Source: Coffea arabica (taxonomy: Eukaryota > Streptophyta > Magnoliopsida > Gentianales > Rubiaceae). From it: DNA of 64,000 nucleotides. Position 1 is the stretch's first letter; the number at the start of each line of letters is the position of its first letter. The stretch covers positions 4,526,001 through 4,590,000 of the forward strand of contig NC_092326.1 of the NCBI RefSeq assembly GCF_036785885.1, in the 5' to 3' direction. Both the position numbers and the translations under genes were made by a program. The notes beneath the pieces were generated by a model. The model was not told the DNA's origin. It was given only the letters and a program-made list of their open reading frames with translations, and searched no databases. Shown here one piece after another: positions 4,681 through 64,000 of this stretch.

Positions 4681-5215
4681 ACACTGTAACTGCTAACATT
4701 ACTATTTTGTAACAGTTTTCAAACACACTGTGATTTTTTAATAACTATTTTGTAACAACCTACAAACACACTGTAACATGCAATCATCAAATATGGAGTT
4801 TTGTATTAATTTTCAATCTCTAACTTCCCAATTAAGTATTTTGTGACAGTCTTCAATAACATTCAACTTTTCAATAACTATTTTGTAACAACTTACAAGC
4901 ATTTCGTAACTAACAGTTTTCCAATATGGAGTTTTGTATTAATTTTCAAACTGTAACATTCCAGATAACTATTTTGTAATAGTTTTCGAACACATTGTAT
5001 CTTTCTAATAACTATTTTGTAACAACCTACAAACATACTGTCAACAAATAGTCAAATACGGAGTTTTGTATTAATTTTTAATCTGTAACTTCCCAAATAA
5101 TTTTTTTGGTAACAGTTTTCAAAAATACTGTAACTTTTCAATAACTATTTTGTAATAGTTTTTAACCACAGTGTAACTAACAATTTTTCAAACACACTGT
5201 AACTTTCCAATTGGC
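4680..5215. repeat. ~130-bp tandem repeat array, about four diverged copies
   Basis: The blocks ATAACTATTTTGTAACAACC, CAAACACACTGTAAC and GGAGTTTTGTATTAATTTT recur in the same order. The last block occurs at about 4796, 4928 and 5060, a period of about 132 bp. The copies are diverged and lie inside the MULE. Confidence 0.75.
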
Positions 5216-6089
5216 TTAACATGACATTAGGCTTATCTGGATGTAACTTGAATAAAGTCACACTTAATTATTATATTCAATTCAGTTTGTCGGGTCTGCT
5301 TCACATGCAGCTGACATTGGTGTATTATGACAGTATGCCTACTAACAACAATGTTATACAACTCATTTAGCTCAGCCTGCAGTTACATGACGACATTACC
5401 AATCCATAAATGAGCCACATACTCTCCAGAATGGAATATAATACACGCATATACAATAATACATCTAAGTGAAAGTTATAAATTTAACATTTGTACTGTT
5501 GGTATAGGTTCTATAACTGTAAGTTCTATGGCAATAAATAAAATGGTCACCGCGAAAACTGAATGTTCATTTATTTATAATATGATTATCCAAAAGATCA
5601 CTACATTTATGTATTTACATGCGTGTGATTTAATTCAAGATAACTTATTTGTTCAATGTAATATTGGGATTGGTTTCATATATTAACTATAACTGTATGG
5701 AGTTACAAGTTGATAAACCTATCAATGACCCATAATGTTGACAATAATATGTAGTAATTACGTCAAACCAAACAATAAATTTCATTAACCATGGAACAGG
5801 CTCATTTACACCGATATCGGCATGCTCGCTGTTCATCATCATCCCTACCAAATCAGGGGGTAGTTCAGTACGCCACGCACCATATTATTCTCGTCCGGAT
5901 CATGTCGTCCAACCTTTAACATCAAATTAAACCAACAATTTCAATAGCAAAGCCACGTAATACATACACCAATACTTTTTATATGAAATGAGGTAAACAA
6001 TAAATAACATGTTACCAACTTTCCTTTTCCATAAGTCTCAAGATTCTTAATCTCCAATGCATCCCTTTCAGAGATTAGAGCATCTGTCT

Positions 6090-6870
6090 ATTTAAACTGG
6101 AGTTTTACACAGACAATTGCACTTCAGTTCCATTATGCTTTTCCCATTTATTCTTAATGCATTACAAAGTACTAAGATAAATAATATATCACTTTCAAAT
6201 CTTAGTAACAATAGTTATGAAAACTTGTAACTTATTTTTCACACTCTGTTTGTCAAAATTAACAGTAGGTTAATTATGCTGCCTCATCAATTCCACTTAC
6301 AATCTACTCTCACTCATTTATCAAGTTTGATGGGATTAACTTCTTCTTTTATTTCTTGTCCTACTCTATAAATATGAGTTAATGTAACAATCAGGAGGTA
6401 CCAATTTCATAGTTATATTCACGAAATTTTACAAAGCAGTTCTTATATTGTAATTGCTAACTCACTGTATGTTACAGTTATTCAACTTCATGTCCACGCA
6501 CACTAGCAAAGTAAAACTTGTAACCTTTTTCCGCATTGAGTGTGCCAAGTTAAAAACTATGTTATTCATTTTGCCTACCCTGTTCAGATTGTCGTTTGCT
6601 GCCCTAACTATCAAGTTTCAAACAATTAACCTCTTCTTCTATTTATCCTGTGATTATGCAAATACGAGTTAACTAACAAATAATAGGTAGCAATTTTACA
6701 GTATGCTCATGCAATATTACATATTAGTTCTTCTACTGTAACTGTTGACTAACTGCATGTAACAGTTATTCAACATGGTGTCCAACCCCACTAGCTAAAA
6801 AAACTTATAACTTTTTTCTCTGCAATGCGTCTACCAATCTGAGTGTCATGTTATTTTATTCCGCATAATA
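6090..6870. repeat. ~290-bp tandem repeats, two clear copies and one weak
   Basis: The stretch 6370-6580 (blocks AGTTCTTATATTGTAA, TGTTACAGTTATTCAAC, CACACTAGC, AACTTGTAACC) is repeated at 6660-6870 with the same order and about 75-80% identity by eye. An upstream weaker copy ends near 6370 with the shared AGTTTGATGG/ATTAACTTCTTCTTTTAT block. It lies in the 3' half of the MULE. Confidence 0.65.
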
Positions 6871-38133: not shown

Positions 38134-38204
38134 GCTCCTGTTGTATCTAGGATTTAGAAATGTGATAATTTTCAATCTTCTTTTGTAGTTGGGCTTTTAC
38201 TTAA

Positions 38205-39596
38205 GGGAAAATCGTTCACGTCCCTCACATTTTACAAAATAACTTTTTTCATCCCTTACTTTTAAAAATGTAATTTTACGTCCTTTACAAATTCACATTT
38301 GTCAAATTTGATACCTACTTAGCTTTTTGACTAGTTTTTTGTCGGAATTCACCACATGCCTTGCACGTGATCATATTTTAAGGGCAAAATTATCAAATCA
38401 GATTTTATATAATTCGATTCATAATTCCTCACATTTCATAAAATAAATTTTTTCGACCCTTACATTTCATAAAATAAATTTTTGCATCCTTTATTGATCA
38501 TGTATGTGAGAATAATTTTTTTTAAATCCATGTATATATCTATTTGGTTTCACCTAAACAGTACGAACAGCATGTGAAATCAAATGGAGACATATTACAT
38601 ACTATTCGTACTGCTCAAGTGAAATCAAATAAATATATATATATGAATTTAAAAAAATTGCTAGTTTTTCACTTATATTTATTTTCTTTTAATCGAAATT
38701 TGAAAATAAAGAAGACATTTAATCCTAAATATTATCGAGTGTTTATATCGAATTAAATTTGGATAGAAAAAGTAAACAAAAGGAAAGTATGACAAAAAGA
38801 AATGAGTGATTGGCACTTTTAAATTTTAAAACAATCACAAGGCAAGTAATTCAACTGTTTGTCTTAAAAGTATCGAATAGAAATTTCATATTTAAACTGA
38901 AATTTGTTAGCACAATTATAGAATTCGAGTTAGGCCCCATTAATTAGATGACCTTATTATACAACTCAATAAAAAAATTATTACTAAAAGAGAAATGTCA
39001 CAAATATTGAATAGGTTCAAATGGTGAAATATTATAAATATATACATGGGTTTCAAACAAAATCATTAGCTTTAAACACCTATATATATATATCTATTGA
39101 ATAGCATGTGTATAATTACGATTAGCATGTTTGGATTAAATCCAATAGAGATAAATTACATGTTATTCATACTCTTCAGATAAAATCAAATAGACATATA
39201 TGCGGATTTATAGAAAAAAAAACTATTCGTATACATGATCAATGAGGGATGAAAAAATTCATTTTGAAAAATGTGAGGGATAGAAACATTCATTTTTTGA
39301 AATGTGAGGAATGAAACAATTCATTTTGTAAAATGTTAGGGACGACAAAATTCATTTTGTGAAATGTGAGGGACTATGAATCAGATTATGTAAAAATTTG
39401 ATTTGACAATGTTACCCTTAAAAAATGATCACATGCAAGTCACATGGTGAATTCCGGCAAAAAACTAGTCGGAAACCTAGGTAGGGACCAAATTTGATCA
39501 ATGTGAATTTGTAAGGGACGTAAAATTATACTTTTAAAAATAAGGGACAAAAAAATCATTTTGTAAAATATAGGGGACGTTTTGAACAATTTTCCC
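38205..39596. mobile_element. Long-TIR Mutator-like fold-back element, copy 1
   Basis: Termini GGGAAAATCGTTCACGTCCC and GGGACGTTTTGAACAATTTTCCC are inverted, and the inverted arms extend about 350-400 bp (CTCACATTTTACAAAATAA, CAAATTCACATTTGTCAAA, GCACGTGATCAT and their complements on the right). A perfect 9-bp target duplication TTTACTTAA (38196-38204, 39597-39605) indicates a Mutator-like mechanism. There is no coding potential. A related copy lies at 47295-48427. Confidence 0.9.
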
Positions 39597-39605
39597 TTTA
39601 CTTAA

Positions 39606-40172
39606 ATAAGTATTATAAGGCCACAAAAGCAAATGATGAAATTTTGCAACAACCAAAATAAGTCTAAAAAGGTTTCAAGTTTATAGAATCACTGCAAATC
39701 CTATTAAATTTACTATCAAACCTATTTATTTAAGAATTAATATTCTATTTACTGACAGTTTATACACTTACATCATTGGATGCATAATACATAATCCAAT
39801 TTTGAATTTAAAACTCAAATTTTGTATATGTGTCATGCATCCAACCGTGAAAATATATACATTGTCAGTGTATATAAATTTTATTCTTTATTTAAAGCAT
39901 AGAACTTCAATAAATAATTATCATTCCAATTAATTTGCAACTTAGACCTTTCAATTCTTGTATTAAAATTGCCAATACTAATTAGTTCTAAAATTGGTTG
40001 TCACCTTATGCCCTTTTTTTTTTTAATTTGATTGATTATCAATCCTTGTTATGATGAAAATTGATTGTCCCCTTAGCCTTTATTAATTATTTGACTGATA
40101 TTACTAATACTAATAAGCATCAAAATTAAGTGCCACATTAGATATTTCTAATAGTTTGATTAATGTTGTCAT
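39606..40172. other. Intergenic, start of a diverged repeat field
   Basis: AT-rich; the end overlaps the ~100-bp repeat field at 39955-40830. No gene. Confidence 0.5.
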
Positions 40173-47294: not shown

Positions 47295-48427
47295 AGAAAA
47301 TCATTCAAAACGTACCTCACATTCTGCAAAATAATATATTTCGTCCCTCACTTTTAAAATTCACATTGATCAATTTTGGTCCCTACCTAAATTTCCCATT
47401 AGTTTTAGCCTCACATTCTGCAAAATAATATTTTTCGTCTCTCATTTTTTAAAATATAATTTTAAATCCCTTACAAATTCACATTAATCAAATTTGGTAT
47501 CTACCTAGATTTTCGATTAGTTTTAGGCCGGAATACAGCATGTGTCTTGCACATGATCATTTTTAAGGGGTAAAATTGTCAAATCAAATTTCATATAATT
47601 CAATTTTTTCGTCCCTCATATTTTACAAAATAATTTTTTTCGTTCCTCACATTTCAAAAATGAATTTTTTCATCTCTCATATTTCACAAAATAAATTTTT
47701 CATCTCTCACTAATCATGTGAATGAATAGTTTCTTTTTTTTAAACCAATGTATATATCTATTTGAATTTATTTGAATAATACGAATATCAAGTAATATAT
47801 CTGTATTTGATTTCATCTACAACTACAATTAGTTTATTTATGTGAAATTAAATAGAGATATATTACATGTTATTTGTACTATTTAGGTGAAATCAAATAT
47901 ATATATATATATATATGAGTTTTCAAAAATAAGAAAAGACTATCATATACATGATCAATAAGAGATGAAAATTTTCCTTTTGCAAAATGTGAATAATGAA
48001 AAAAATTATTTTGCGAAATGTGAGGGACAAAAAAATTCGGCATTGTTTGGATTGCATTTTTCTGAATTTTTTGTGAAAAAATTGCTGTAGCCATTTGATA
48101 TATGTGATGTAAAAAAGTGATTGAAAAATGTATCCACGGAAAACGTGGCAATTTTCTTTAGAAATCTACAATCCAAACACACCTTCATTTTGTGAAATGT
48201 GATGAGTTATAGATCAGATTATGTGAAATGTGTTTGACAATTTTACCCCTCAAAATGATCATGTGTACGGCACGTGCTAAATTCTGGCAAAAAACTAGTC
48301 AAAAACCTAGATAGGGACCAAATTTAATCAATGTGAATTTGTAAGGGACTTAAAATTACACTTTTAAAAGTAAGGAATGAAAAAATTATTTTACAAAATA
48401 TAAGGGACGTTTTGAACGATTTTTTCT
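47295..48427. mobile_element. Long-TIR Mutator-like fold-back element, copy 2
   Basis: The sequence is related along both arms to the copy at 38205-39596 (CAAAATAATATTTTTCGTC, CAAATTCACATTAATCAAAT, GCACATGATCATTTTTAAGG and inverted partners). A 9-bp target duplication TTTAAAAAT lies at 47286-47294 and 48428-48436. The left arm carries a partial internal duplication (CCTCACATTCTGCAAAATAA appears twice). It hosts a MITE in the right arm. Confidence 0.85.
48039..48183. mobile_element. 145-bp MITE nested in the Mutator-like element
   Basis: Termini GGCATTGTTTGGATTGCA and CTACAATCCAAACACACC are inverted. TTC flanks both sides (48036-48038, 48184-48186). The sister copy shows the uninterrupted site (AAATTCATTTTGTGAAATG), which proves the borders and the 3-bp duplication. 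A 3-bp duplication fits a Harbinger-like MITE, though TTC is not the usual target. Confidence 0.85.
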
Positions 48428-48533
48428 TTTAAAAATTCGATACATAAGATAAAATTTTCTCATAGTTGAGGAGGGATGCAATTGCCCCCCTCCCCTCCCC
48501 TTAACTGTATTTGGCTCCGTCATTGCTTGCCAT

Positions 48534-48938
48534 ACAATCTAGATGGGTCGTGTTGTTATTGTTACCCTTTAAACAAAAAGAAAAAAAATCAATTCGCGCA
48601 CACACAAATCTATCTTGCTTTTGTAATTAGAGTATAATTGTTCTATATTTCCTATTGTTGGACTTGATTCTAATATAGATTCAATAAATGCTAAAAAAGT
48701 TGATACACATATACATCCTAAAAAATCTCTAATTCTTTTGTTTTTTGAAATTTGAATTATTAAAAACGACGAGAATGCAATAAAACAAAGGGGAACATTG
48801 CAATAGAGAATGATTAATATATAGTTATGCATGTAGGTAAAATTTTCAAAATGGCAAAAGGAAAAATGATATCTTATCAAGAGGATGCAAGTTGTACCAA
48901 ATTCACAATTAGTGAATACTGTTATAAAACTAATAAAA
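48534..48938. other. Spacer before the array, no gene
   Basis: AT-rich sequence. A minus-strand open frame of 144 codons covers part of it and runs into the LTR; it shows no recognisable domain and is Phe/Ile-rich, so I leave it uncalled. Confidence 0.45.
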
Positions 48939-49245
48939 TGAAATACTACAATAGGAATTGAAGAAATAGAGAAATGGAAAATGATATTCTTATATTTCAA
49001 CAAATACCAAAGTCATCTCAAAGGATGTCAATGTACCTCTATATATAGGTACTACAAGATCAAAGGTACATAAATTCTATTAAACACCCACTACTACAGG
49101 AATATGAAGAAATCTATGAAACGATTTTTCATTACATGAATAGATTTATGAATTGTAACTTCTATACATAATGTAGCCATAAAATCATGAATTAATCCTC
49201 TTGGGAAAACAAAGAGACATTAACATTTTTAGTTATTTCATAACA
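48939..49245 (-). repeat. LTR of array unit A1
   Basis: On the minus strand it starts TGTTATGAAATAACT, has TATA-like CCTATATATAGAG, and ends near CTTCAATTCC. A polypurine tract CAAGGGGAAG directly precedes its minus-strand start. Homology to the other three LTR copies stops at about 48950, which marks the left edge of the array. Confidence 0.85.
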
Positions 49246-49384
49246 CTTCCCCTTGAATGTCCATTACATAAAAAATATGTCTCGTTAAAACCTTACTAGG
49301 AAAAAATCCATCAGGACAAAAACCTTAGTGAAGGAAAAGGAGTACACTATTCTTTTGTATTAATTTCTCCCCCTGATGCAAACA

Positions 49385-51470
49385 TCATTTGAGATCTTTT
49401 AATCGTCGCATTCCAATACTCTACACCAATTTCTCAAATGTCGCAGTTGGTAATGGCTTGGTAAATAAATCTGCTAGATTATTATCTGATCGGATTTGTT
49501 GCACATCAGTTTCACCACTCTTTTGCAAATCATGAGTAAAAAAGAATTTTAGTAAAATGTGTTTCGTCCTATCCCTTTAATATATCCACCTTTCAATTGA
49601 GCTATACAAGCTGCATTGTATTCATATAATATAGTTCGAGGATTTTTTTTTTTCAGAGGATAACCCACAACTTTTTCGGATATAGTGGGTCATTGATCTC
49701 AATCAAACACATTCTCGACTGGTTTCATGAATTGCTATTATTTCAACATGATTCGATGAAGTGGCGGCTAGTAATTGCTTTGTAGATTATCAAGAAATGG
49801 CTGTGCCTCCATATGTAAATAAATAACCAGTCTGAGATCTTGCTTTATGCGAGTCGGATAAATACCCAGCATCAGCATAACCAACCAATTCAGATTTGGA
49901 TTTATTTGAATAAAATAAAACAAGATCAATTGTTCCTTGGAGATAGCGAAGAATATGTTTAATTCCATTCCAATGTCGTCTTGTGGGCGAGGAACTAAAT
50001 CTTACTAATAAATTTACTGCAAATGATATATCAGGTCTTGTACAATTAGCAAGATACATTAGTGCACCAATTGCACTGAGATATGGTACTTCAGAACCAA
50101 GTATCTTTTCATTTTCCTCTTGTGGTCTAAAAGGATCCTTATTAGGATCTAATGATCTGACAACCATTGGAGTACTTAATGTATGTGATTTATCCATATA
50201 AAATCGCTTTAATACCTTCTGGGTATATGCAGTTTGGTGTACAAAAATTTCACCTTTCAAATGCTCAATCTATAAACCAAGGCAGAATTTTGTCTTTTCA
50301 AAATCTTTAATTTCAAATTCTTTTTTCAAATATTCAACACTATTTTGAATCTCTACAGAAGTTCCAATTAAATTTAGATCAACTTATACCGCAATTATCA
50401 CAAAATTTGATCCATTTTTTTTAATAAAAACACATGGACATATTGGATCATTGGTATAACCATCTTTAGTTAGACATTCATTGAGGCAGTTATACCACAA
50501 TAGTCCAGATTGTTTGAACCCATACAAAGACTTTTGTAATTTAATAGAATAAATATCTTTAGGAGTTGATTTGCATGCTTCAGGCATGTTAAATCCTTCG
50601 GGGATTCTCATAAAAATATTATTTTTAAGATTTCTATATAAATATGCAGTAACAATGTCCATTAGACGCATATCTAATTTTTCATGTACTGCAAAATTTA
50701 TAAGATATCTAAATGTGATAGCATCCATTACAGGTGAATACGTTTCATCATAATCAAATCCAGGCTTTTGTGAAAATCCTTGGGCTACATGTCTTGATTT
50801 ATACATCACAATTTCATTTTTCTCAAAAAATCCATTTATATCCTACTGGCTTTACACCTTCAGGTGTTTAGACTACAGGTCCAAAAATTTTTCTTTTAGC
50901 CAGTGAATTCAATTTAGATTGGATCGCATCATTCCATTTTGGCCAATAATTTCTACGTCGATATTCATCAACCGATCTAGGCTTCTGATCCTCAACCCTC
51001 TGCCATAATATCAAGTGTTACGTTATATGCAAAAATATTATCAATAATTATTTCTTTTCGATTCCAACTTTTTATTAGAATGGCAAAATTTATTGAATTT
51101 TCTATAATTTCATTCTATTCAAGAATTGGCTCTTTAGGAGCGACCACTTCAGGAGCTTGAATTTTGTCACTAATTATTGATTCATCTACTACTCTTTTTT
51201 TTGGAGAATTTTTATCTTTAGAACCAAGAGGTCTCCCACGCTTCAGGCGTGCTTTAGACTCATTAGCACTTGTAATTTGTTCTTCAGGGACATCGATTTT
51301 AATCGGAGCATTTTCAGCAAGAATATGTGATTTAGTAACTCTTTTGGAGTCATTAAATGCATCCGGTAATTGATTTACAAGTTTTTCCAAATGTATAATC
51401 CTTTGAACTTCTAATTCACATTCTTTTGTACAAGAATCAAGGAAATTCAATGATATTTTTCAAGTGATTT
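49385..51470 (-). pseudogene. Unit A1 copia pol remnant (integrase tail, reverse transcriptase, RNase H)
   Basis: Going 5' to 3' on the minus strand, 51450-51115 encodes the integrase/RT linker with KRGRPLGSKDKNSPKK. Then 50809-50384 carries reverse transcriptase blocks (YKSRHVAQGFSQKPGFDYDE, KLQKSLYGFKQSG), and 50260-49790 carries the C-terminal RT and RNase H start (LSAIGALMYLANCTRPDISF, SQTGYLFTYGG). The end near 49385 matches RNase H (SIGMRRLKDLK-stop in the sister unit). At least four frame breaks separate the pieces, and protease and the integrase core are absent. Confidence 0.9.
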
Positions 51471-52245
51471 CCTTTGTCGGTTGATTTTTGCAAAAAGTCT
51501 TGTATTATTTGCCGATAGTTATCGAGCGTGTCCGCATCCTCAATGTGAGCACTAAAATTTCTTAGATAATCTACATAAGACCAGAAGTCATTAGTGTAAT
51601 CTTGTGGGTAATACACCACTGGTTCAGTAACCAAACCTAGTTGCGTTTTTAGTTCCGCTGCTTTTTTTTGCCGCTGAATGGAAGGATAATAAAAGACAGC
51701 AGTACAGATGCTAGGTTGATTAGCATGTTGAATCCGATATGTCCAATTTTCGACATTGATTGTTAAAGTCGGTATTCTCGTTTTCATCTTTTGATGAGCA
51801 CGAATGACAATTTCCTAACGCTCTTCAGACGTCAAGAGGAAAGGATGGTACTTCAGTTTTGGCCGCAGAAAATCCCTCACACTACAAAAATAATCATACT
51901 CCGCTTGTAAAAGGCTCGGATGAGGTTGTGGAAGCGTGTCTTTGAACATTTGATAGAGAGAGTTCATATCAAGCACATTGCGCCTTTTTCACTATTTTTT
52001 CTCCTTTCTACAATCAAATTTAATCAAGAACAGCTTTACTTTTCCTCCAACCACAAAAATTTTGTTCCCCGTTATGTCGCCGTGGCAAATTTTCATCTTC
52101 GAAATATCTCCAAAACACGAGATGATGCCCCTCCATTAAGAGAAATCCTTTACCATCATGGGATGCATGATGCTGCTCCCAGAAATATGCACTGAAGGTA
52201 CTGTCAATCCTCTAAGTGATGAAATAGTAGCGATACGGACACTCT
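51437..52245 (-). pseudogene. Unit A1 captured kinase-KEN (IRE1/RNase L-like) fragment
   Basis: On the minus strand the fragment starts near CHGDITGN (kinase HxDxxxxN catalytic-loop pattern, about 52090). It passes through a broken middle, then reads in one frame from 51787 to 51437: RIQHANQPSICTAVFYY, YYPQDYTNDFWSYVDYLRNF, then SAHIEDADTLDNYRQIIQ. LRNFSAH matches the R-N-x3-H active-site spacing of the KEN ribonuclease domain that follows the kinase in IRE1 and RNase L. The HPFLW signature that opens KEN is clear in the B units. It is not part of any copia protein I know, so I infer capture of a host gene piece. In A1 the kinase part has stops; only the KEN part is open. Confidence 0.6.
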
Positions 52246-52975
52246 CTCTTTGCAGTGCCGTATATCTAAAAATTTTAAATCTGTCAATGAATATAATTCA
52301 GCCATATTCAGAATGACTTCTAAATTATCATTATGTGGCAAAAAAATCACTGATGAAGATATGATAGAGAAGACAGTTTCTACTTTTCATGTTTCTAACA
52401 TGCTCCTGCAGCAGCAATATCGAGAGAAGGGATTTAAAAAATATTCTGAACTTTTCGCATGTCTTCTTTTAGTTGAACAAAATAATTAATTATTGCTGAA
52501 AAATCATGAGTCCCGACCAACTGGTGCAAGTCCATTCCCCGACGTGAAAGCGACCCAATTTCAAAATTCTGGTCGAGGTCGTGGATGTGGCCGTAGAGGT
52601 AGGCGTGGACGTGGCCGTGGACACGATCGTAGTAGATTTGTGCCCCGTAAAAATGATAACCGTAGCAAACAATAAAATATTTTTCAAAAAAGGAAAAATA
52701 ACTACGATCAAAAAAATGGAGAAAAGAAAGTTTATGAAGAAAAATGCTACCGGTGTGGTATGGAAGGTCATTAGTCTCGTACCTGTCGTACGGCCGAAAA
52801 TCTTGTTGATCTCTATCAAGCATCATTGAAAAAGAAAGACAAAGGCGTTGAGACAAATTTCATTGATCAAACGAATAACTATGATGATGATGGTGATGCT
52901 GATATGACACACCACAATGTAGCTGATTTTTTTGAGTATCCTGAAGATGTAAACGAATATCCCATGATTATTTAG
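52245..52975 (+). pseudogene. Unit A1 copia gag, inverted relative to pol
   Basis: The plus-strand frame from 52250 reads FKSVNEYNSAIFRMTSKL and QQQYREKGFKKYSEL, typical of copia gag, to a TAA at 52486 (EQNN-stop). It continues with an Arg/Gly-rich stretch (GRGRGCGRRGRRGRGRGH) and a zinc knuckle CYRCGMEGH-stop-SRTC in which TAG replaces the expected Trp codon. It ends DVNEYPMII-stop at 52973. The N-terminal part of gag is missing. Both stops are shared with unit A2, so they predate the dimer duplication. Confidence 0.88.
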
Positions 52976-53076
52976 ATATTTTTATGATGTTTTATATCTT
53001 TTATGTAATTTTCTTTCCATTGAATATTTATTTTCGCATCTTTATTAATATTTATTTTTGTTTGAAATTTTCTTTC

Positions 53077-53376
53077 TGAAAAAGAAATTGAAGAAGTAGA
53101 TAAATGGAAAATGATATTCTTATGTTTCAACAAATACCAAAGTCATCTCAAATGGTGTCAATGTATCTCTATATATAGGTACTACAAGATCAAAGATACA
53201 TAAATTCTATTAAATACCCACTACTACCAGAATATGAAAAAACCTATGAAACGGTTTCTCCACTACATGAATAGATTTATGGATTGTAACTTCTATACAT
53301 AATGTAGCCATAAAATCATCAATTAATCCTCTAGTAAATACAAAGGGACATTAACATTTTTAGTTATTTCATAACA
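53077..53376 (-). repeat. LTR of array unit B1
   Basis: 300 bp, same termini as the A1 LTR (minus-strand TGTTATGAAATAAC to TTCTTTTTCA). It sits between the A1 gag end and the B1 pol end. Next to its outer edge no tRNA primer-binding site is visible. Confidence 0.85.
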
Positions 53377-53514
53377 CCCCCCTGGGATGTCCATTACACA
53401 AAGAATATGCTTTGTTAAAACCTTACTAGGGAAAAATTCATCGGGACAGAAACTTTAGTGAAGGAAAAAGAGTACACTATTCTTGTGTATTAATTTCTCC
53501 CCCTGATGCAAATA

Positions 53515-55590
53515 TCATTTGAGATCTTTTAATCGTCGCATTCCAATACTCTTTACCAATTTTTCAAATGTCGCAGTTGGTAATGGCTTGGTAAATAAAT
53601 CTGTCAGATTATTATCTGATCGGATTGTTGCACATCAATTTCATCATTCTTTTGCAAATCATGAGTAAAAAAGAATTTTGGTGAAATGTGTTTCGTCCTA
53701 TCTCCTTTAATATATCCTCCTTTCAATTGAGCTATACAAGCTGCATTGTCTTCATATAATATAGTTCGAGGATTTTCTTTTTCAGAGGATAACCCACAAC
53801 ATTTTCGGATATAATGGGTCATTGATTTTAACCAAACACATTCTCGACTGGCTTCATGAATTGCTATTATTTCAACATGATTCGATGAAGTGGCGGCTAG
53901 TGATTGCTTTGTAGATCGCCAGGAAATGGTTGTGCCTCCATATGTAAATAAATAACCAGTCTAAGATCTTATTTTATGCGAGTTGGAAAAATATCCGGCA
54001 TCAGCATAACCAACCAATTCAGATTTGAATTCATTTGAATAAAATAAACCAAGATCAATTGTTTCTTGGAGATAGCGAAAAAAATGTTTAATACCATTCC
54101 AATGTCGTCTTGTAGGCGAGAAACTAAATCTTACTAATAAATTTACTGCAAATGATATACCAGGTCTTGTACAATTAGTAAGATACATTAGTGCACCAAT
54201 TGCACTGAGATATGATACTTCAGAACCAATTATTTTTTTATTTTTCACTCGTGCTCTGAAAGGATCCTTATTAGGATCTAATGATCTGACAACCATTGGA
54301 GTACTCAATGTATGTGATTTATCTATGTAAAATCACTTTAATATCTTCTGGGTATATGCAGTTTGGTGTACAAAAATTTCACCTTTCAAATGCTCAATCT
54401 GTAAATCAAGGCAGAATTTTGTCTTTCCAAAATCTTTAATTTCAAATTCTTTTTTCTAATATTCAACACTATTTTGAATATCTTCAAGAGTTCCAATTAA
54501 ATTTAGATCAATTTATACCGCAATCATCATAAAATTTGATCCATTTTTTTAATAAAAACACATGGACATATTGGATCATTTGTATAACCATCTTTAGTTA
54601 GACATTCATTGAGCCGATTATACCACATTAGTCCAGATTGTTTGAACCTATACAAAGACTTTTGTAATTTAATAGAATATATATCTTTATGAGTTGATTT
54701 GCATGCTTCAGGCATGTTAAATCCTTCGGCGATTCTCATATAAATATAATTTTCAAGATTTTCATATAAATATGCAGTAACATTGTCCATTAGACGCATA
54801 TCTAATTTTCATGTACTGCAAAACTCATAAGATATCTAAATATGATAGCATCCATTACAGGTGAATACGTTTCATCATAATGAAATCCAGGCTTTTGTGA
54901 AAATCCTTGGGCTACATGTCATGTTTTATACCTCACAATTTCATTTTTCTCATTTTTTTTCTCAAAAAACCCATTTATATCCTACTGGTTTTACATCTTC
55001 AGATGTTTGGACTACAGGTCCAAAAATTTTTCTTTTAACTAGTGAGTCCAATTCAGATTGGATCGCATCTTTCTATTTTGACCAATCATTTCTACGTCGA
55101 CATTCATCAACCAATCTAGGCTCCTGATTCTCGTCCTCTGCCATAATATCAAGTGCTACGTTATATGCAAAAATATTATCAATAATTATTTCTTTTCGAT
55201 TCCAACTTTTTCTTGGAGTGACAAAATTTATTGAATTTTCTATAATTTCATTCTATTCAAGAATTGGCACTTTAGGAGCGACCTCTTCACGAGTTTGAAT
55301 TTTGTCACTAATTATAGATTCATCTACTTCTCTTTTCTTTTGAGAATTTTAATTATTCGAACCAAGAGGTTTCCCACGTTTCAGGCGTATTTTAGACTCA
55401 TTAGCATTTGTAATTTATTCTTCAGGGTTATCGATTTTAATTGGAGCATTTTCAGCAAGAATATGTGATTTAGTAACTGTTTTGGAGTCATTAAATGCAT
55501 CCGGTAATTAATTTGCAATTTTTTACAAATGTATAATCCTTTGAACTTCTAATTCACATTCTTTAGTACGAGAATCAAGGAAATTCAATG
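53515..55590 (-). pseudogene. Unit B1 copia pol remnant
   Basis: Same order as A1. Pieces are 54799-54527 (reverse transcriptase, RLMDNVTAYLYENLENYIYM, KLQKSLYRFKQSGLMWYN), 54308-53961 (SYLSAIGALMYLTNCTRPGI) and 53822-53604 (RNase H, ILYEDNAACIAQLKGGYIKG, KHISPKFFFTHDLQ). A one-base deletion near 54810 (CTAATTTTCATG where A units have an extra T) and a stop in the integrase-tail linker are shared with unit B2 and are type-B marks. Confidence 0.9.
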
Positions 55591-56335
55591 ATTTTTTCCA
55601 AGCGATTTTCTTTTTTGGTTGATTTTTGCAAAAGCCTTGTATTATTTGCCGATAGTTATCGAGCGTGTCCGCATCCTCAATGTGAGTACTAAATTTCTTA
55701 GATAATCTACATAAGACCAGAAGTCATTAGTGTAATCTTTTGGGTAATACACCACTGGTTCAGTAACCAACCTAGTTGCGTTTTTAGTTCCGCTGCTTTT
55801 TTTTGTTGCTGAATGGAAGGATAATAAAAGACAGCAGTACAGATGCTAGGTTGGTTAGCATGTTGAATCCGAGATGTCCAATTTCCGACATTGATTGTTA
55901 AAGTCCGCATTCTTCTTTTCATCCTTCGATGAGCACGAATGACAATTTTCACACGCCCTTCATGCGTCCAGAGGAAAGGATGGTACTTCAGTTTTGGCCG
56001 CAGAAAATCTCTCACATTACAAAAATAATCATACTCCGCTTGTAAAAGGCTCGGATGAGGTTGTGGAAGCGTGTCTTTGAACATTTGATAGAGAGAGTTC
56101 ATATCAAGCACATTACGCCTTTTCCACTCTTTTTCCTCCTTTCTACAATCAAATTTAATCAAGAACAGCTTTACTTTTCCTCCAGCCACAAAAATTTTGT
56201 TCCCCGTTATGTCGCCGTGGCAAATTTTCATTTTCGAAATATCTCCAAAACACGAGATGATGCCCCTCCGTTAAGAGAATTACTTTATCATCATGGGATG
56301 CATGATGTTGCTCCCAGAAATATGCGCTGAAGGAA
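55590..56335 (-). pseudogene. Unit B1 captured kinase-KEN (IRE1/RNase L-like) fragment
   Basis: The best-preserved copy: 174 codons open from 56231 to 55707 on the minus strand. Residues 3-10 read ICHGDITG followed by NKIF, the kinase catalytic loop with Asp and Asn in place, then GGKVKLFLIKFD where a DFG-like segment would be. Near residues 75-90 DFLRPKLKYHPFLW resembles the LRP-x-HPxFW junction between kinase and KEN domains in IRE1. After residue 158 a one-base deletion (AACCAACC for AACCAAACC) shifts the frame. A second, one-base shorter A run near 55693 breaks the RN-x3-H segment that is open in A1. The kinase N-lobe is missing. The assignment rests on motif spacing read by eye. Confidence 0.62.
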
Positions 56336-56339
56336 CTGT

Positions 56340-57131
56340 CAATCCTCTAAGTGATGAAGTAGTAGCGATCCGGACACTCTCTCTTTGCAGTACCATATAT
56401 CTGAAGATATTAAATCTTTCAATGAATATAATTCAGCCATATTCAGAATCACTTCTTAATTATTATTATTATGTGGCGAAAAAGTCACTGATGAAGACAT
56501 GTTAGAGAAGACATTTTCTACTTTTCATGTTTCTAATATGCTCCTGCAGCAGCAATATCGAGAGAAGGGATTTAAAAAATATTTTGAACTTATCGCATGT
56601 CTTCTTTTGGCTGAACAAAATAATGAATTATTGCTGAAAAATCATGAATCCCGACCAACTGGTGCAAGTCCATTCCCCGACGTGAATGCGACTCAATTTC
56701 AAAATTCTGGTCGAGGTCGTGGACGTGGCCGTAGAGGTGATCGTTGTGGAGGCCGTGGACATGGCCGTGCCCGTGGACGCGATCGTAGCAGATTTGTGCC
56801 ACGTGAAAATTATAATCGTAGCAAACAATAACATATTTTTCAAAAGAGAAGAAATAACTACTATCAGAAAAATAGAGAAAAGAAATTTTATGAAGAAAAA
56901 TGCTACCGGTGTGGTATGGAAGGTCATTGGTCCCTTACCTGTTGTTCGGCCGGGCATCTTGTTGATCTCATTCAAGTATCATTGAAAAAGAAAGACAAAG
57001 GCGTTGAGACAAATTTCATTGATCAAACGAATGACTATGATAATGGTGATGACGCTGATATGACACACGTCGATGTAGCTAATTTTTTTGAGCATCCTGA
57101 AGATGTAAACAAATATCCCATAATTATTTAG
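56340..57131 (+). pseudogene. Unit B1 copia gag, inverted relative to pol
   Basis: The plus strand reads NEYNSAIFRITS then a stop. A frame from 56499 follows (LEKTFSTFHVSNMLLQQQYR to an RG-rich run with GRGRGRGRRGDRCGGRGHGR and a stop at 56829). After a frameshift comes an intact zinc knuckle CYRCGMEGHWSLTC (CX2CX4HX4C) and an end at 57129-57131. It lacks the two nonsense marks of the A units. The N-terminus is truncated at the same place as in A1. Confidence 0.88.
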
Positions 57132-57232
57132 ATATTTTTATGATGTTTTATATCTTTCATATAATATTCTTTTCATTGAATATTTATTTTCGCATCTTTA
57201 TTAATATTTATTTTTGTTTGAAATTTTCTTCC

Positions 57233-57535
57233 TGAAGAAGAAATTGAAGAAGTAGAAAAAAGGAAAATGATATTCTTATATTTCAACAAATACCAAAGTC
57301 ATCTCAAAGGGTGTCAATTTACCTCTATATATAGGTACTACAAGATCAAATATACATAAATTCTATTAAACACCCACTACTACATGAATATGAAGAAAAA
57401 ACCTATCAAACGGTTTCTCCACTACATGAATAGATTTACGGATTGTAACTTCTATACATAATGTAGCCATAAAATCATGAATTAATCCTCTTGGAAATAC
57501 AAAGGGACATCAACATTTTTTGTTATTTCATAACA
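57233..57535 (-). repeat. LTR of array unit A2
   Basis: 303 bp; polypurine CAAGGGGGAG precedes its minus-strand start, as in A1. Confidence 0.85.
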
Positions 57536-57674
57536 CTCCCCCTTGAATGCCTATTACACAAAAAATACGTCTCGTTAAAACTTTACTAGGGAAAAATCCA
57601 TCGGGACAAAAATCTTTGTGAAGGAAAAAGAGTACACTATTCTTGTGTATTAATTTCTCCCCCTGATGCAAATA

Positions 57675-58950
57675 TCATTTGAGATCTTTTAATCGTCGCA
57701 TTCCAATACTCTTTACCAATTTTTCAAATGTCGCAGTTGGTAATGGCTTGGTAAATAAATCTGCCAGATTATAAATCAAAGCAGAATTTTGTCTTTCCAA
57801 AATCTTTAATTTCAAATTCTTTTTTGAAATATTCAACACTATTTTGAATCTCTTAAGGAGTTCCAATTAAATTTAGATCAACTTATACCGTAATTATCAC
57901 AAAATTTGATCCATTTTTTTAATAAAACACATGGACATATTGGATCATTGGTATAACCATCTTTAGTCAGACATTCATTGAAGCAGTTATACCACATTAG
58001 TCCAAATTGTTTGAACTCATACAAAACCTTTTGTAATTTAATAGAATAAATATCTTTAAGAGTTGATTTGCATGCTTCAGGCATGTTAAATTCTTCGGGG
58101 ATTCTCATAGAAATATTATTTTTAAGATTTCCATATAAATATGCAGTAATAATGTCCATTAGACGCATATCTAATTTTTCATGTACTGCAAAATTCATAA
58201 GATATCTAAATGTGATAGCATCCATTACAGGTGAATACGTTTCATCATAATCAAATCCAGGATTTTGTGAAATTTCTTGGGCTACATGTCTTGATTTATA
58301 CCTCACAATTTCATTTTTCTCATTTCTTTTTCTCAAAAAATCCATTTATATCCTACTAGCTTTACACCTTCAGGTGTTTAGACTACAAGTCCAAAAATTT
58401 TTCTTTTAGCCAGTGAGTTCAATTTAGATTGGATCGCATCATTCCATTTTGGCCAATAATTTCTACGTCGATATTCATCAACCGATCTAGGTTTCTGACC
58501 CTCGTCCTCTGCCATAATATCAAGTGCTACGTTATATGTAAAAATATTATCAATAATTATTTCTTTTCGATTCCAACTTTTTATTGGAGTGACAAAATTT
58601 ATTGAATTTTCAATAATTTCATTCTATTCAAGAATTGGCTCTTTAGGAGCGACCTCTTCACGAGGTTGAATTTTATCACTAATTATTGATTCATCTACGA
58701 CTCTTTTCTTTCGAGAATTTTTATCTTTAGAACCAAGAGGTCTCCCACGCTTCAGGCGTGCTTTAGACTCATTAGCACTTGTAATTTGTTCTTCAGGATT
58801 ATCGATTTTAATCGGAGCATTTTCAGCAATAATATGTGATTTAATAACTCTTTTGGAGTCATTAAATGCATCTGGTAATTGATTTGTAATTTTTTACTAA
58901 TGTATAATCCTTTGAATTTCTAATTCACATTCTTTAGTACCAGAATCAAG
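57675..58950 (-). pseudogene. Unit A2 copia pol remnant with ~0.8-kb deletion
   Basis: The RNase H tail (NLADLFTKPLPTATFEKLVK, SIGMRRLKDLK-stop at 57675) joins at about 57772 directly to sequence that in A1 and B1 lies ~0.8 kb further along. The RNase H core and the RT C-terminus are lost. The reverse transcriptase block 58345-57878 (VRYKSRHVAQEISQNPGFDY, ITFRYLMNFAVHEKLDMRLM) is open for 155 codons. Confidence 0.9.
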
Positions 58951-59745
58951 GAAATTCAATGATATTTTCCAAGCGATTTCCTTTTTCGGTTGATTTTTGC
59001 AAAAGCCTTGTATTATTTCCCGATAGTTATCGAGCGTGTCCGCATCCTCAATGTGAGCACTAAATTTCTTAGATAATCTACATAAGACCAGAAGTCATTA
59101 GTGTAATCTTTTGGGTAATACACCACTGGTTCAGTAACCAAACCTAGTTGCACTTTTAGTTCCGCTACTTTTTTTTTTGCCGCTGAATAGAAGGATAATA
59201 AAAGACAGCATTACAAATGCTAGGTTGGTTAGCATGTTGAATCCGAGATGTCCAAGTTCCGACATTGATTGTTAAAGTTCGTATTCTCCTTTTCATCTTT
59301 CGATGAGCACGAATGACAATTTCCTAACGCTCTTCAGGCGTCAAGAGGAAAGGATGGTACTTCAGTTTTGGCCGCAGAAAATCCCTCACACTACAAAAAT
59401 AATCATACTCCGCTTGTAAAAGGCTCGGATGAGGTTGTGGAAGCGTGTCTTTGAACATTTGATAGAGAGAGTTCATATCAAGCACATTGCGCCTTTTTCA
59501 CTATTTTTTCTCCTTTCTACAATCAAATTTAATCAAGAACAGCTTTACTTTTCCTCCAACCACAAAAATTTTGTTCCCCGTTATGTCGCCGTGGCAAATT
59601 TTCATCTTTGAAATATCTCCAACACACGAGATGATGCCCCTCCATTAAGAGAAATACTTTATCATCATGGGATGCATGATGCAGCTCCCAGAAATATGCG
59701 CTGAAGGAACTGTCAATCCTCTAAGTGATGAAGTAGTAGCGATCC
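58950..59745 (-). pseudogene. Unit A2 captured kinase-KEN fragment
   Basis: Closely similar to the A1 copy and at the same relative place (offset 7509 bp), with stops and frameshifts. The junction with pol reads QGFCKNQPKKEIAWKI then SLNFLDSGTKECELEIQRII on the minus strand, so the captured segment seems to end within a few codons of the LNFLDS stretch. Confidence 0.6.
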
Positions 59746-60484
59746 GAACACTCTCTCTTTGCAGTACCATATATCTGAAGATATTAAATCTATCAATGAA
59801 TATAATTCAGCCATATTCAGAATCACTTCTTAATTATTATTATGTGACGAAAAAGTCACTGATGAAGACATGTTAGAGAAGACATTTTCTACTTTTCATG
59901 TTTCTAACATGCTCCTGCGGCAGCAATATCGAGAAAAGGGATTTAAAAAATATTCTGAACTTTTCGCATGTCTTCTTTTAGTTGAACAAAATAATTAATT
60001 ATTGCTGAAAAATCATGAGTCCCGACCAACTGGTGCAAGTCCATTCCCCGACGTGAAAGCGACTCAATTTCAAAATTCTGGTCGAGGTCGTGGATGTGGC
60101 CGTAGAGGTAGGCGTGGACGTGGACGTGGACACGATCATAGTAGATTTGTGCCCCGTAAAAATTATAACCGTAGCAAATAATAAAATATTTTTCAAAAAA
60201 GGAAAAATAACTACGATAAAAAAAATGGAGAAAAGAAAGTTTATGAAGAAAAATGCTACCGGTGTGGTATGGAAGGTCATTAGTCTCGTACCTGTCGTAC
60301 GGCCGAGAATCTTGTTGATCTCTATCAAGCATCATTGAAAAAGAAAGACAAAGGCGTTGAGACAAATTTCATTGATCAAACGAATAACTATGATGATGGT
60401 GGTGATGCTGATATGACACACCACAATGTAGCTGATTTTTTTGAGTATCCTGAAGATGTAAACGAATATCCCATGATTATTTAG
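59745..60484 (+). pseudogene. Unit A2 copia gag, inverted relative to pol
   Basis: Shares with A1 the TAA after EQNN (59995-59997) and the TAG in the zinc knuckle (GGTCATTAGTCT). It differs from A1 at scattered bases, which argues against an assembly duplicate. Confidence 0.88.
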
Positions 60485-60584
60485 ATATTTTTATGATTTT
60501 TTATATCTTTTATGTAATTTTCTTTCCATTGAATATTTATTTTCGCATCTTTATTAATATATATTTTTGTTTGAAATTTTCTTT

Positions 60585-60885
60585 CTGAAAAAGAAATTGA
60601 AGAAGTAGAGAAATGGAAAATGATATTCTTATGTTTCAACAAATACCAAAGTCATCTCAAATGGTGTCAATGTATCTCTATATATAGGTACTACAAGATC
60701 AAAGATACATATATTCTATTAAATACCCACTACTACAAGAATATGAAAAAACCTATGAAACAGTTTCTCCACTACATGAATAGATTTATGGATTGTAACT
60801 TCTATACATAATGTAGCCATAAAATCATCAATTAATCCTCTAGGAAATACAAAGGGACATTAACATTTTTAGTTATTTCATAACA
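60585..60885 (-). repeat. LTR of array unit B2
   Basis: 301 bp, most like the B1 LTR (CATCTCAAATGGTGTCAATG, TAAATACCCACTACTAC). Confidence 0.85.
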
Positions 60886-61024
60886 CCCCTCCTGGGATGT
60901 CCATTACACAAAGAATATGCCTTGTTAAAACCTTACTAGGAAAAAATTCATCGGGACAGAAACTTTAGTGAAGGAAAAAGAGTACACTATTCTTGTGTAT
61001 TAATTTCTCCCCCTGATGCAAATA

Positions 61025-63100
61025 TCATTTGAGATCTTTTAATCGTCGCATTCCAATACTCTTTACCAATTTTTCAAATGTCGCAGTTGGTAATGGCTTG
61101 GCAAATAAATCTGTCAGATTATTATCTGATCGGATTGTTGAACATCAATTTCATCATTCTTTTGCAAATCATGAGTAAAAAAGAATTTTGGTGAAATCTG
61201 TTTCGTCCTATCTCCTTTAATATATCCTCCTTTCAATTGAGCTATACAAGTTGCATTGTCTTCATATAATATAGTTCGAGAATTTTCTTTTTCAGAGGAT
61301 AACCCACAACATTTTCGGATATAGTGGGTCATTGATTTTAACCAAATACATTCTCGACTGGCTTCATGAATTGCTATTATTTCAACATGATTCGATGAAG
61401 TGGCGGCTAGTGATTGCTTTGTAGATCGCCAAGAAATGGCTGTGCCTCCATATGTAAATAAATAACCAGTCTAAGATCTTACTTTATGCGAGTTGGATAA
61501 ATATCCGGCATCAGCATAACCAACCAATTCAGGTTTGGATTCATTTGAATAAAATAAACCAAGATCAATTGTTTCTTGGAGATAGCGAAAAAAATGTTTA
61601 ATACCATTCCAATGTCGTCTTGTAGGCGAGAAACTAAATCTTACTAATAAATTTACTACAAATGATATACCAGGTCTTGTACAATTAGTAAGATACATTA
61701 GTGCACCAATTGCACTGAGATATGATACTTCAGAACCAATTATTTTTTTATTTTCCACTCGTGCTCTAAAAGGATCCTTATTAGGATGTAATGATCTGAC
61801 AACCATTGGAGTACTCAATGTATGTGATTTATCTATGTAAAATCACTTTAATATCCTCTGGGTATATGCAGTTTGGTGTACAAAAATTTCACCTTTCAAA
61901 TGCTCAATCTGTAAATCAAGACAGAATTTTGTCTTTTCAAAATCTTTAATTTCAAATTCTTTTTTCTAATATTCAACACTATTTTGAATATCTTCAAGAG
62001 TTCCAATTAAATTTAAATCAATTTATACCGCAATCATCACAAAATTTGATCCATTTTTTTAATAAAAACACATGGACATATTGGATCATTAGTATAACCA
62101 TCTTTAGTTAGACATTCATTGAGGCGGTTATACCACATTAGTCCAAATTGTTTGAACATATACAAAGACTTTTGTAATTTAATAGAATAAATATCTTTAT
62201 GAGTTGATTTGCATGCTTCAAGCATGTTAAATCCTTCGGCGATTCTCATATAAATATAATTTTCAAGATTTTCATATAAATATGCAGTAACATTGTCCAT
62301 TAGACGCATATCTAATTTTCATGTACTGCAAAACTCATAAGATATCTAAATATGATAGCATCCATTACAGGTGAATACGTTTCATCATAATGAAATCCAG
62401 GCTTTTGTGAAAATCCTTGGGCTACATGTCATGCTTTATACCTCACAATTTCATTTTTCTCATTTTTTTTCTCAAAAAATCCATTTATATCCTACTGGTT
62501 TTACACCTTCAGGTGTTTGGACTACAGGTCCAAAAACTTTTCTTTTAACTAGTGAGTCCAATTCAGATTGGATCGCATCTTTCTATTTTGGCCAATCATT
62601 TCTACGTCGACATTCATCAACCAATCTATGCTCCTGATTCTCGTCCTCTGCCATAATATCAAGTGCTACGTTATATGCAAAAATATTATCAATAATTATT
62701 TCTTTTCGATTCCAGCTTTTTCTTGGAGTGACAAAATTTATTGAATTTTCTATAATTTCATTCTATTCAAGAATTGGCACTTTAGGAGCGATCTCTTCAC
62801 GAGGTTGAATTTTGTCACTAATTATAGATTCATCTACTTCTCTTTTCTTTTGAGAATTTTAATTATTCAAACAAAGAGGTTTCCCACGCTTCAGGCGTAT
62901 TTTAGACTCATTAGCACTTGTAATTTATTTTTCAAGGTTATCGATTTTAATCGGAGCATTTTCAGAAAGAATATGTGATTTAGTAAATCTTTTGGAGTTA
63001 TTAAATGCATCCGGTAATTGATTTGCAATTTTTTACAAATGTATAATCCTTTGAACTTCTAATTCACATTCTTTAGTACGAGAATCAAGGAAATTCAATG
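61025..63100 (-). pseudogene. Unit B2 copia pol remnant
   Basis: Each open piece repeats that of B1 at +7510 bp: 62309-62037, 61818-61471 and 61332-61114. It keeps the B-type one-base deletion and the RNase H segment that A2 has lost. Confidence 0.9.
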
Positions 63101-63845
63101 ATTTTTTTCAAGCGATTTCCTTTTTTGGTTGATTTTTGTAAAAGTCTTGTATTATTTCCCGATAGTTATCGAGCATGTCCGCATCCTCAATGTGAGCACT
63201 AAATTTCTTAGATAATCTACATAAGACCAGATGTCATTAGTGTAATCTTTTGCGTAATACACCACTGGTTCAGTAACCAACCTAGTTGCGTTTTTAGTTC
63301 CGCTGCTTTTTTTTCTTGCTGAATGGAAGGATAATAAAAGACAGCGGTACAGATGCTAGGTTGGTTAGCATGTTGAATCCGAGATGTCCAATTTCCGACA
63401 TTGATTGTTAAAGTCCGCATTCTCCTTTTCATCCTTCGATGAGCACGAATGACAATTTTCACACGCCCTTCATGCGTCCAGAGGAAAGGATGGTACTTCA
63501 GTTTTGGCCGCAGAAAATCTCTCACATTACAAAAATAATCATACTCCGCTTGTAAAAGGCTCGGATGAGGTTGTGGAAGCGTGTCTTTGAACATTTGATA
63601 GAGAGAGTTCATATCAAGCACATTGCGCCTTTTCCACTCTTTTTCCTCATTTCTACAATCAAATTTAATCAAGAACAGCTTTACTTTTCCTCCAGCCACA
63701 AAAATTTTGTTCCCCGTTATGTCGCCGTGGCAAATTTTCATTTTCGAAATATCTCCAAAACACGAGATTATGCCCCTCCATTAAGAGAAATACTTTGTCA
63801 TCATGGGATGCATGATGCTCCCAGAAATATGCGCTGAAGGTACTG
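63100..63845 (-). pseudogene. Unit B2 captured kinase-KEN fragment
   Basis: 174 codons open from 63741 to 63217, nearly identical to B1 (same ICHGDITG loop and YHPFLW block, same downstream frameshift AACCAACC). That the same 174-codon frame stays open in both B units while pol and gag nearby are broken is of note, though recent duplication alone can explain it. Confidence 0.62.
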
Positions 63846-63884
63846 TCATCCTCTGAGTGATGAAGTAGTAGCGATCCGGACACT

Positions 63885-64000
63885 CTCTTTTTGCAGTATC
63901 ATATATCTGAAGATATTAAATCTTTCAACGAATATAATTCAGCCATATTCAGAATCACTTCTCAATTATCATTATGTGGCGAAAAAGTCACTGATGAAAA
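63885..64000 (+). pseudogene. Unit B2 copia gag, truncated by the window end
   Basis: Plus-strand start of the gag homology (NEYNSAIFRI), then an open stretch to the window edge. It continues outside. Confidence 0.8.

Follow-up and report, generated by a model that had tools for sequence, protein, structure and literature searches.

We examined a 64,000-nucleotide stretch of the Coffea arabica genome (NC_092326.1, C17:4526001-4590000; hereafter the window) and found at its end a tandem array of units derived from copia retrotransposons, each of which carries a piece of a host gene that looks like a copy of spliced messenger RNA (mRNA). The reading that we prefer, at a probability of roughly 0.8, is that this piece was retroposed by a long terminal repeat (LTR) retrotransposon and that the resulting composite was then multiplied by tandem duplication of DNA. 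Searches for relatives and further copies covered the 1.198 Gb genome in 131 contigs.

The array runs from position 48920 to the end of the window and comprises four units, spaced by 4135, 3374 and 4136 bases; a fifth unit lies beyond the window (locus L017). Read along the minus strand, each unit consists of a captured segment of ~780 bp, the copia integrase C-terminal part, the reverse transcriptase, the RNase H region and an LTR, while the captured segment is bordered on its other side by the copia gag, on the plus strand. Each unit is a head-to-head composite, with gag and pol on opposite strands. The gag pieces gave no match to a gag family in Pfam; we take them to be gag from their continuity with an ordinary copia gag at locus L018. 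The initial annotation had described a minus-strand segment without copia domains between pol and gag in all four units, and this holds: no copia domain was matched in the frames of the segment that were scanned. The parts of unit 1 and its junctions, compared with the copy on C18 (L010) and with the related locus L009 on C22, are:

48920..49245, minus strand: outermost LTR of the array, complete (TGTTAT...ATAACA), lying downstream of the unit 1 pol; 92-94% identical to both LTRs of the C18 composite.
49246..51489, minus strand: unit 1 pol, with integrase C-terminal part, reverse transcriptase and RNase H region; RVT_2 expectation value (E) 9.8e-32; 92.5% identical to L010 2725-4985.
51482..51492, minus strand: 3' chimeric junction between host exon 2 and copia integrase, in a short AAA(A/T)ATC similarity.
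51490..52268, minus strand: unit 1 captured segment (779 bp, one frame with a few stops), putatively encoding a pseudokinase hinge and C-lobe and the first part of a KEN-like domain; 91.2% identical to spliced L009 exons 1-2.
51865..51866, minus strand: exon-exon junction, where the 179-nt GT-AG intron of L009 (5881-6059) is absent.
52266..52270, no strand assigned: 5' chimeric junction between the captured segment and the oppositely facing copia gag, from junction-probe matches.
52269..53088, plus strand: unit 1 gag, N-terminal part missing; 90.5% identical to L010 5771-6588; continues the ordinary copia gag of L018 8200-8760.

The host origin of the segment is based on its relatives elsewhere in the genome. 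The nearest relatives found of the six composite copies (five on C17 and one on C18) were L009 on C22 (90.1-91.3% identity) and L011 on C12 (84.3-85.3%), followed by L013 and L014 (71.5-73.9%). That the segment is not a product of chance is shown by its match, at ~91% identity, to exons on a different chromosome. L009 positions 5653-5878 and 6059-6441 aligned to the contiguous window positions 52091-51866 and 51864-51483, and the intervening intron was absent in all six composite copies, with the flanking exon bases joined directly in the alignment. This intron of ~179 nt is nearly identical in sequence in L009 and L011; it starts with GT in both and ends with AG in L009 and AT in L011. In the IQ-TREE phylogeny the composites grouped together (ultrafast bootstrap 95), L009 branched next and L011 fell outside both (95), and FastTree gave a support of 0.96 to both groupings. 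From this branching order, on which the argument depends, the intron is older than the copy, and its exact absence in six out of six copies points to a spliced mRNA as the source. A second exon junction near 52131 is suggested by 17 nt that the composites lack relative to other paralogues and by an AG acceptor in L011; we regard it as suggestive only. The claim that a piece of a host gene had been captured is thus supported by the spliced exons of an intron-bearing relative. L009 is 5'-truncated and may be related to the donor without being the donor itself. We had also considered L009 and L011 as subgenome partners; this was dropped, since C22 and C12, where the two loci are found, do not form a pair as C17 and C18 do.

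Both ends of the captured segment, at ~51489 and 52269, are fused to LTR-retrotransposon sequence. We searched the genome with junction probes of 251 bp (gag side) and 241 bp (integrase side), and scored 40 of 211 and 40 of 305 candidates, respectively. On the gag side, six of the 40 matches spanned the junction (five on C17, one on C18), 32 started exactly at 52269 and two started 4-5 bases later. On the integrase side, six of 40 spanned the junction, 33 ended at 51489 and one ended one base earlier. The same six units spanned both junctions, and the other 34 matches of each probe were ordinary copia up to the breakpoint, within 5 bases. Host and copia share AAA(A/T)ATC at the integrase-side junction; at the 5' junction the host sequence beyond the breakpoint was not found in L009 or L011. 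All six chimeras among the scored junction matches lie at one locus pair, and none was dispersed to an unrelated site. A protein search of the genome, with all 90 candidates scored and 61 matches, recovered no more close copies outside C17, C18, C22 and C12.

The C18 copy (L010, C18:1787401-1794891) is a single composite of two head-to-head copia halves. With < and > for minus and plus orientation, its order is LTR<, pol<, captured<, gag>, Pol_BBD/gag_pre-integrs/rve/SH3>, RVT_2> and LTR>, with the rve match at E 7.5e-6, below that family's own cut-off. Within L010, identity is 92.4% between the left and right pol arms and 95.4% between the two LTRs, and the inverted pol covers 1.44 kb at 92% identity. 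The right LTR continues into what we take to be a site like a primer binding site (PBS), and in L018 the start of an ordinary gag comes next. The initial annotation held that the capture had replaced the protease and the integrase core; they were not replaced, because in L010 they follow gag in normal order in the half that faces the opposite way. The flank beyond 48920 is common to C17 and C18, with 96.4% identity over 2350 aligned columns (MAFFT) or 94.3% (BLAST). The alignment of the left flanks makes it probable that the two loci represent one site in the two subgenomes. By sequence comparison the C17 and C18 composites are one event at one locus pair, and the composite is probably older than the divergence of the two coffee subgenomes.

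On C17, a 4.15-kb piece comprising LTR, pol, captured segment and gag (equivalent to L010 2437-6588) is tandemly repeated in five units. The unit junction lies inside gag and 36 bp within the LTR, with a 3-nt overlap, AAT. The array is a segmental tandem duplication, and neither transposition nor LTR sharing. We had considered that the units share LTRs, and this was dropped because the internal LTRs are 36 bp short and the unit junction lies in gag.

The absence of the intron, both junctions and the head-to-head layout can be read directly from the alignments, and from them we infer the following mechanism. A copia reverse transcriptase would have copied copia RNA from its 3' end through the RNase H, reverse transcriptase and integrase C-terminal parts, and would then have switched, at the short similarity, to a co-packaged spliced host mRNA near the end of exon 2. 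The host mRNA would have been copied up to the putative kinase hinge, and the end of the complementary DNA joined head to head to the middle of gag in a second copia copy facing the opposite way. Later, on C17, the 4.15-kb piece was duplicated in tandem to five units.

Several observations weigh against LTR-mediated retroposition. The 5' junction, in opposite orientation, goes beyond simple template switching, and we assume end joining or a later rearrangement there. The two LTRs of L010 are in opposite orientation, without directly repeated LTRs around the chimera, and no target-site duplication was seen in the ends inspected, for which no systematic test was made. The more distant paralogues L013 and L014 also lack an intron at the site in question, so that a lost intronless paralogue is still conceivable as the source, and no full intact donor gene was found in the genome. 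Finally, only 40 of the junction candidates of each probe were scored, and the right sides of the C17 and C18 loci were compared within copia sequence only.

These points bear on a different course of events, in which two copia elements inserted head to head in or beside an intronless host paralogue, and the mosaic was duplicated in tandem with no capture by reverse transcription. That gag and pol face opposite ways, that a single locus pair was found among the scored candidates, that distant paralogues are intronless and that the paralogue array at L014 adjoins a hAT-type piece would all fit such a mosaic. We nevertheless consider it unlikely, since the segment is closest to the intron-bearing L009, the intron is also present in the next relative L011, and the 3' end stops within coding sequence, with no host flank, inside the short similarity to copia. 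Far less probable still is that a non-autonomous copia element, mobile and with the kinase-KEN piece instead of protease and integrase, multiplied by transposition, as the several copies in one array and the LTR sequence between units might suggest. Six junction copies among 40 scored per probe, all at a single pair of loci whose left flank is shared, speak against it, as do the truncated internal LTRs with the unit junction in gag and 36 bp inside the LTR, and the inverted gag with protease and integrase core in the other half. The amplification by the retrotransposon that had been proposed therefore gives way to retroposition followed by local tandem duplication.

Based on sequence comparison, the captured piece probably encodes part of a divergent pseudokinase-KEN domain, nearer to RNase L than to IRE1. 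CHGDITGN and LRPKLKYHPFL were present in all four units, the latter followed by W only in units 2 and 4. Only in unit 1, where the initial annotation had placed it, did the R-N-x3-H block (LRNFSAH) share the frame of the other motifs; units 2-4 were frame-shifted there. RNFSAH, with the R-N-x3-H spacing of the KEN active site, was found in unit 1, the composite copy L002, L009 and P0002, the last being one of three relatives (P0001-P0003) that were all a protein database search returned. The corresponding block was RHFQVH or RHFQFH in the C1 paralogues and KNIGSH in L012. The HGD..N, FD, HPF..T.E.R, W-T-x2-I and R-N-x3-H blocks are colinear with RNase L. We judged KEN-likeness on pairwise shuffles with controls. 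Against pig RNase L, semi-global alignment gave z scores of 5.4 for the L009 translation, 7.9 for P0001 and 5.4 for P0002 (0 of 1000 shuffles each), and local alignment 3.5 (4 of 1000), 6.8 (0 of 1000) and 3.5 (9 of 1000), respectively; unit 1 with X at its stops reached 5.7. Human RNase L gave weaker semi-global values (z 1.6-6.6). Four unrelated open reading frames compared with pig and human RNase L as negative controls gave z of at most 1.7 (300 shuffles), and coffee IRE1, a true KEN protein used as the positive control, gave 14.3 against pig RNase L.

The profile tests were mixed. Of 3000 shuffles scored with a hidden Markov model (HMM) of RNase L, 0 were recorded for P0001, 11 for L009, 24 for P0002, 164 for L002 and 433 for L013; with the IRE1 model the counts were 28, 484, 665, 670 and 851 in the same order. 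When a C-terminal paralogue profile was compared with a four-sequence KEN template that had human RNase L as its master row, the counts were 0 of 150 shuffles both locally and globally; yeast IRE1 in that row gave 5 and 8 of 150; the P values of hhalign itself were 0.014-0.076, and the L002 row was reduced to a single residue. One alignment gave 0 (global) and 3 (local) of 300 shuffles in the profile test.

Other results count against a KEN-like identity. Two other alignments were weak in the profile test, with 23 and 34 of 200 shuffles globally and 12 and 7 of 200 locally; the first of them had one row in the wrong frame. For the composite copy L002, the comparison with pig RNase L gave a z of only 2.0 (15 of 400 shuffles). 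Coffee IRE1 compared with the L009 translation, P0001 and P0002 gave semi-global z of 0.6-1.7; overall, the IRE1 comparisons were weak for P0001 and no better than chance for the other two. The KEN profile PF06479, a search that had been recommended for the segment frames, did not match the family sequences at an E limit of 10, a search in which the HMMER filters drop most matches above E 0.1. A phmmer search of PDB sequences returned nothing credible, and the AlphaFold models had a mean predicted local distance difference test (pLDDT) score of 38.0 and 40.6, unusable for the fold. Taken with the absence of Pfam matches, such results are what one would expect if the segment came from an unrelated fast-evolving plant protein with KEN-like motifs by chance, which would be compatible with capture as well. 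We hold this to be rather unlikely in view of the colinear blocks, of z scores of 5-8 against pig RNase L (0 of 1000 shuffles), and of 0 of 150 for the C-terminal profile with the human RNase L master. The kinase-KEN assignment is thus probable on the RNase L side, with pig z of 5-8 in four of five sequences and 2 in the fifth, below curated thresholds, and the likeness to IRE1 that had also been proposed was near chance. Pfam matches of captured frames (Otospiralin, SET_TTL, FKRP_N, Kdo kinase and others) were weak and inconsistent, and we took them as chance. In the whole genome PF06479 gave six matches, which we read as four IRE1-type genes (C19, C20, C13 and C14), none of them of the captured family.

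Among the database relatives, P0001 and P0002 are close to the segment and are encoded on ENA contigs of 954 and 926 nt, of either genomic or transcript origin. P0003 is a publicly available gene model of Coffea arabica, labelled 'putative nuclease HARBI1' (L009 764-6700), in which a Harbinger transposase is fused to the last two L009 exons and part of L009 exon 2 is skipped. Viral contigs and plasmids contained no relatives of the captured segment. Within the coffee genome, tandem arrays with units of ~0.93 kb of the kinase-KEN-like family were observed at L013 (C7), L014 (C14) and L016 (C8), and an N-terminal unit of L014 adjoins a hAT-type piece whose DUF659 match, at E 0.00027, falls short of the family cut-off. 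Divergent family clusters were located at L058 (C1:7719001-7723000), C1:7719475-7733787 and C2:8200736-8222822; the KEN-like motif of L058 is R-H-x3-H instead of R-N-x3-H.

The captured frame is broken by a frameshift or stops in five of the six composite copies, and the C18 copy retains an open stretch of 203 amino acids (aa). The ratio of nonsynonymous to synonymous substitution rates (Ka/Ks) among the six copies was 0.63-3.34 over 15 pairs (13 of them at 0.76-1.83), each pair having only 2-8 synonymous differences. These values give no indication that the captured frame is under selection, with little power. Comparison with L013 and L014 gave Ka/Ks of 0.46-0.70, which points to older constraint in the family. 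Most likely the captured piece is inert as a protein. A role as RNA, via the inverted arms, is possible. Mu killer is a hairpin-type silencer of maize Mutator. A long shot along these lines is that the clusters on C1 and C2 and the arrays on C7, C8 and C14 represent an undescribed, fast-evolving RNase L-like pseudokinase-KEN family, and that the composite, with its antisense piece, is transcribed as a hairpin giving rise to small RNAs against copia and the KEN-like genes.

Capture of partial mRNAs by LTR retrotransposons via template switching is described as established in passages of PMC5408686 and PMC13317346, with maize Bs1 as an example, and a passage of the latter cites counts for rice (~1,235 captured genes) and for sorghum (1,343 transduced sequences). 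The coffee composite resembles transduction of the Bs1 type, as presented there, in being a partial intronless mRNA copy fused within an LTR retrotransposon, with short similarity at one junction. It departs from that type in that the copia sequence on one side is inverted relative to the copy, the two LTRs of the composite are in opposite orientation, dispersed copies were not found and the captured frame is mostly broken. Tandem arrays of LTR retrotransposons that share internal LTRs are likewise known (PMC11899658), and the coffee array has head-to-tail units with a single LTR between them in common with those; unlike them, its internal LTRs are 36 bp short and its junction lies in gag, from which the units arose by segmental duplication and not by LTR sharing. 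Relative to RNase L and IRE1 (PF06479; passages of PMC3710099), the coffee family has the same order of kinase loop, HPF block and R-N-x3-H block, nearer to RNase L, and the C-terminal FGGSYLLKLY of L009 resembles the last KEN helix. It differs in that KFD replaces the kinase DFG, PF06479 does not match, an additional segment precedes the R-N-x3-H block and the pieces recovered show no sensor or ankyrin part. The HEPN survey in PMC3710099 reports KEN expansions in monocots such as rice, and coffee is not named in those passages. A literature search of partial coverage returned nothing that joins KEN or RNase L with Coffea or with retrocopies. What is new here is the particular gene family and the head-to-head form; this kind of capture itself is known.

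The remaining units of the array, with the 174-aa frame in unit 2, are as follows:

53086..53376, minus strand: internal LTR, outer end 36 bp short, at the tandem-duplication junction with the 3-nt AAT overlap.
53377..55627, minus strand: unit 2 pol part.
55628..56403, minus strand: unit 2 captured segment, containing the 174-aa frame at 55707-56231.
56404..57244, plus strand: unit 2 gag part.
57242..57535, minus strand: unit 3 LTR, outer end truncated.
57536..58998, minus strand: unit 3 pol part, with an internal deletion of ~0.8 kb at 57772; RVT_2 E 1.8e-23.
58999..59777, minus strand: unit 3 captured segment.
59778..60597, plus strand: unit 3 gag part.
60595..60885, minus strand: unit 4 LTR, outer end truncated.
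60886..63137, minus strand: unit 4 pol part.
63138..63909, minus strand: unit 4 captured segment.
63910..64000, plus strand: unit 4 gag part, ending with the window; the array continues in L017.

In the fifth unit, gag is split by ~7.7 kb relative to C18 (C17:4594368-4602062, L017/L018). Elsewhere in the window we observed related inverted-repeat elements at 47400-48430 and 38195-39606, resembling miniature inverted-repeat transposable elements and containing 30-31-bp tandem repeats, and a 133-bp tandem repeat of 3.4 copies at 4701-5191.

For the coffee genome, the composite is an uncommonly traceable capture, in that an intron-bearing relative, the intronless copies, both breakpoints and the ordinary element all occur in one genome. 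An intron-bearing donor had been sought, and L009 is the relative found, in truncated form. More broadly, a domain that a transposon appears to have captured and amplified can stem from a single capture followed by tandem duplication, with gag on the opposite strand as a clue. Finally, the segment points to a divergent, probably RNase L-like gene family of coffee that was missed by the domain models tried, one member of which is hidden under the HARBI1 label.

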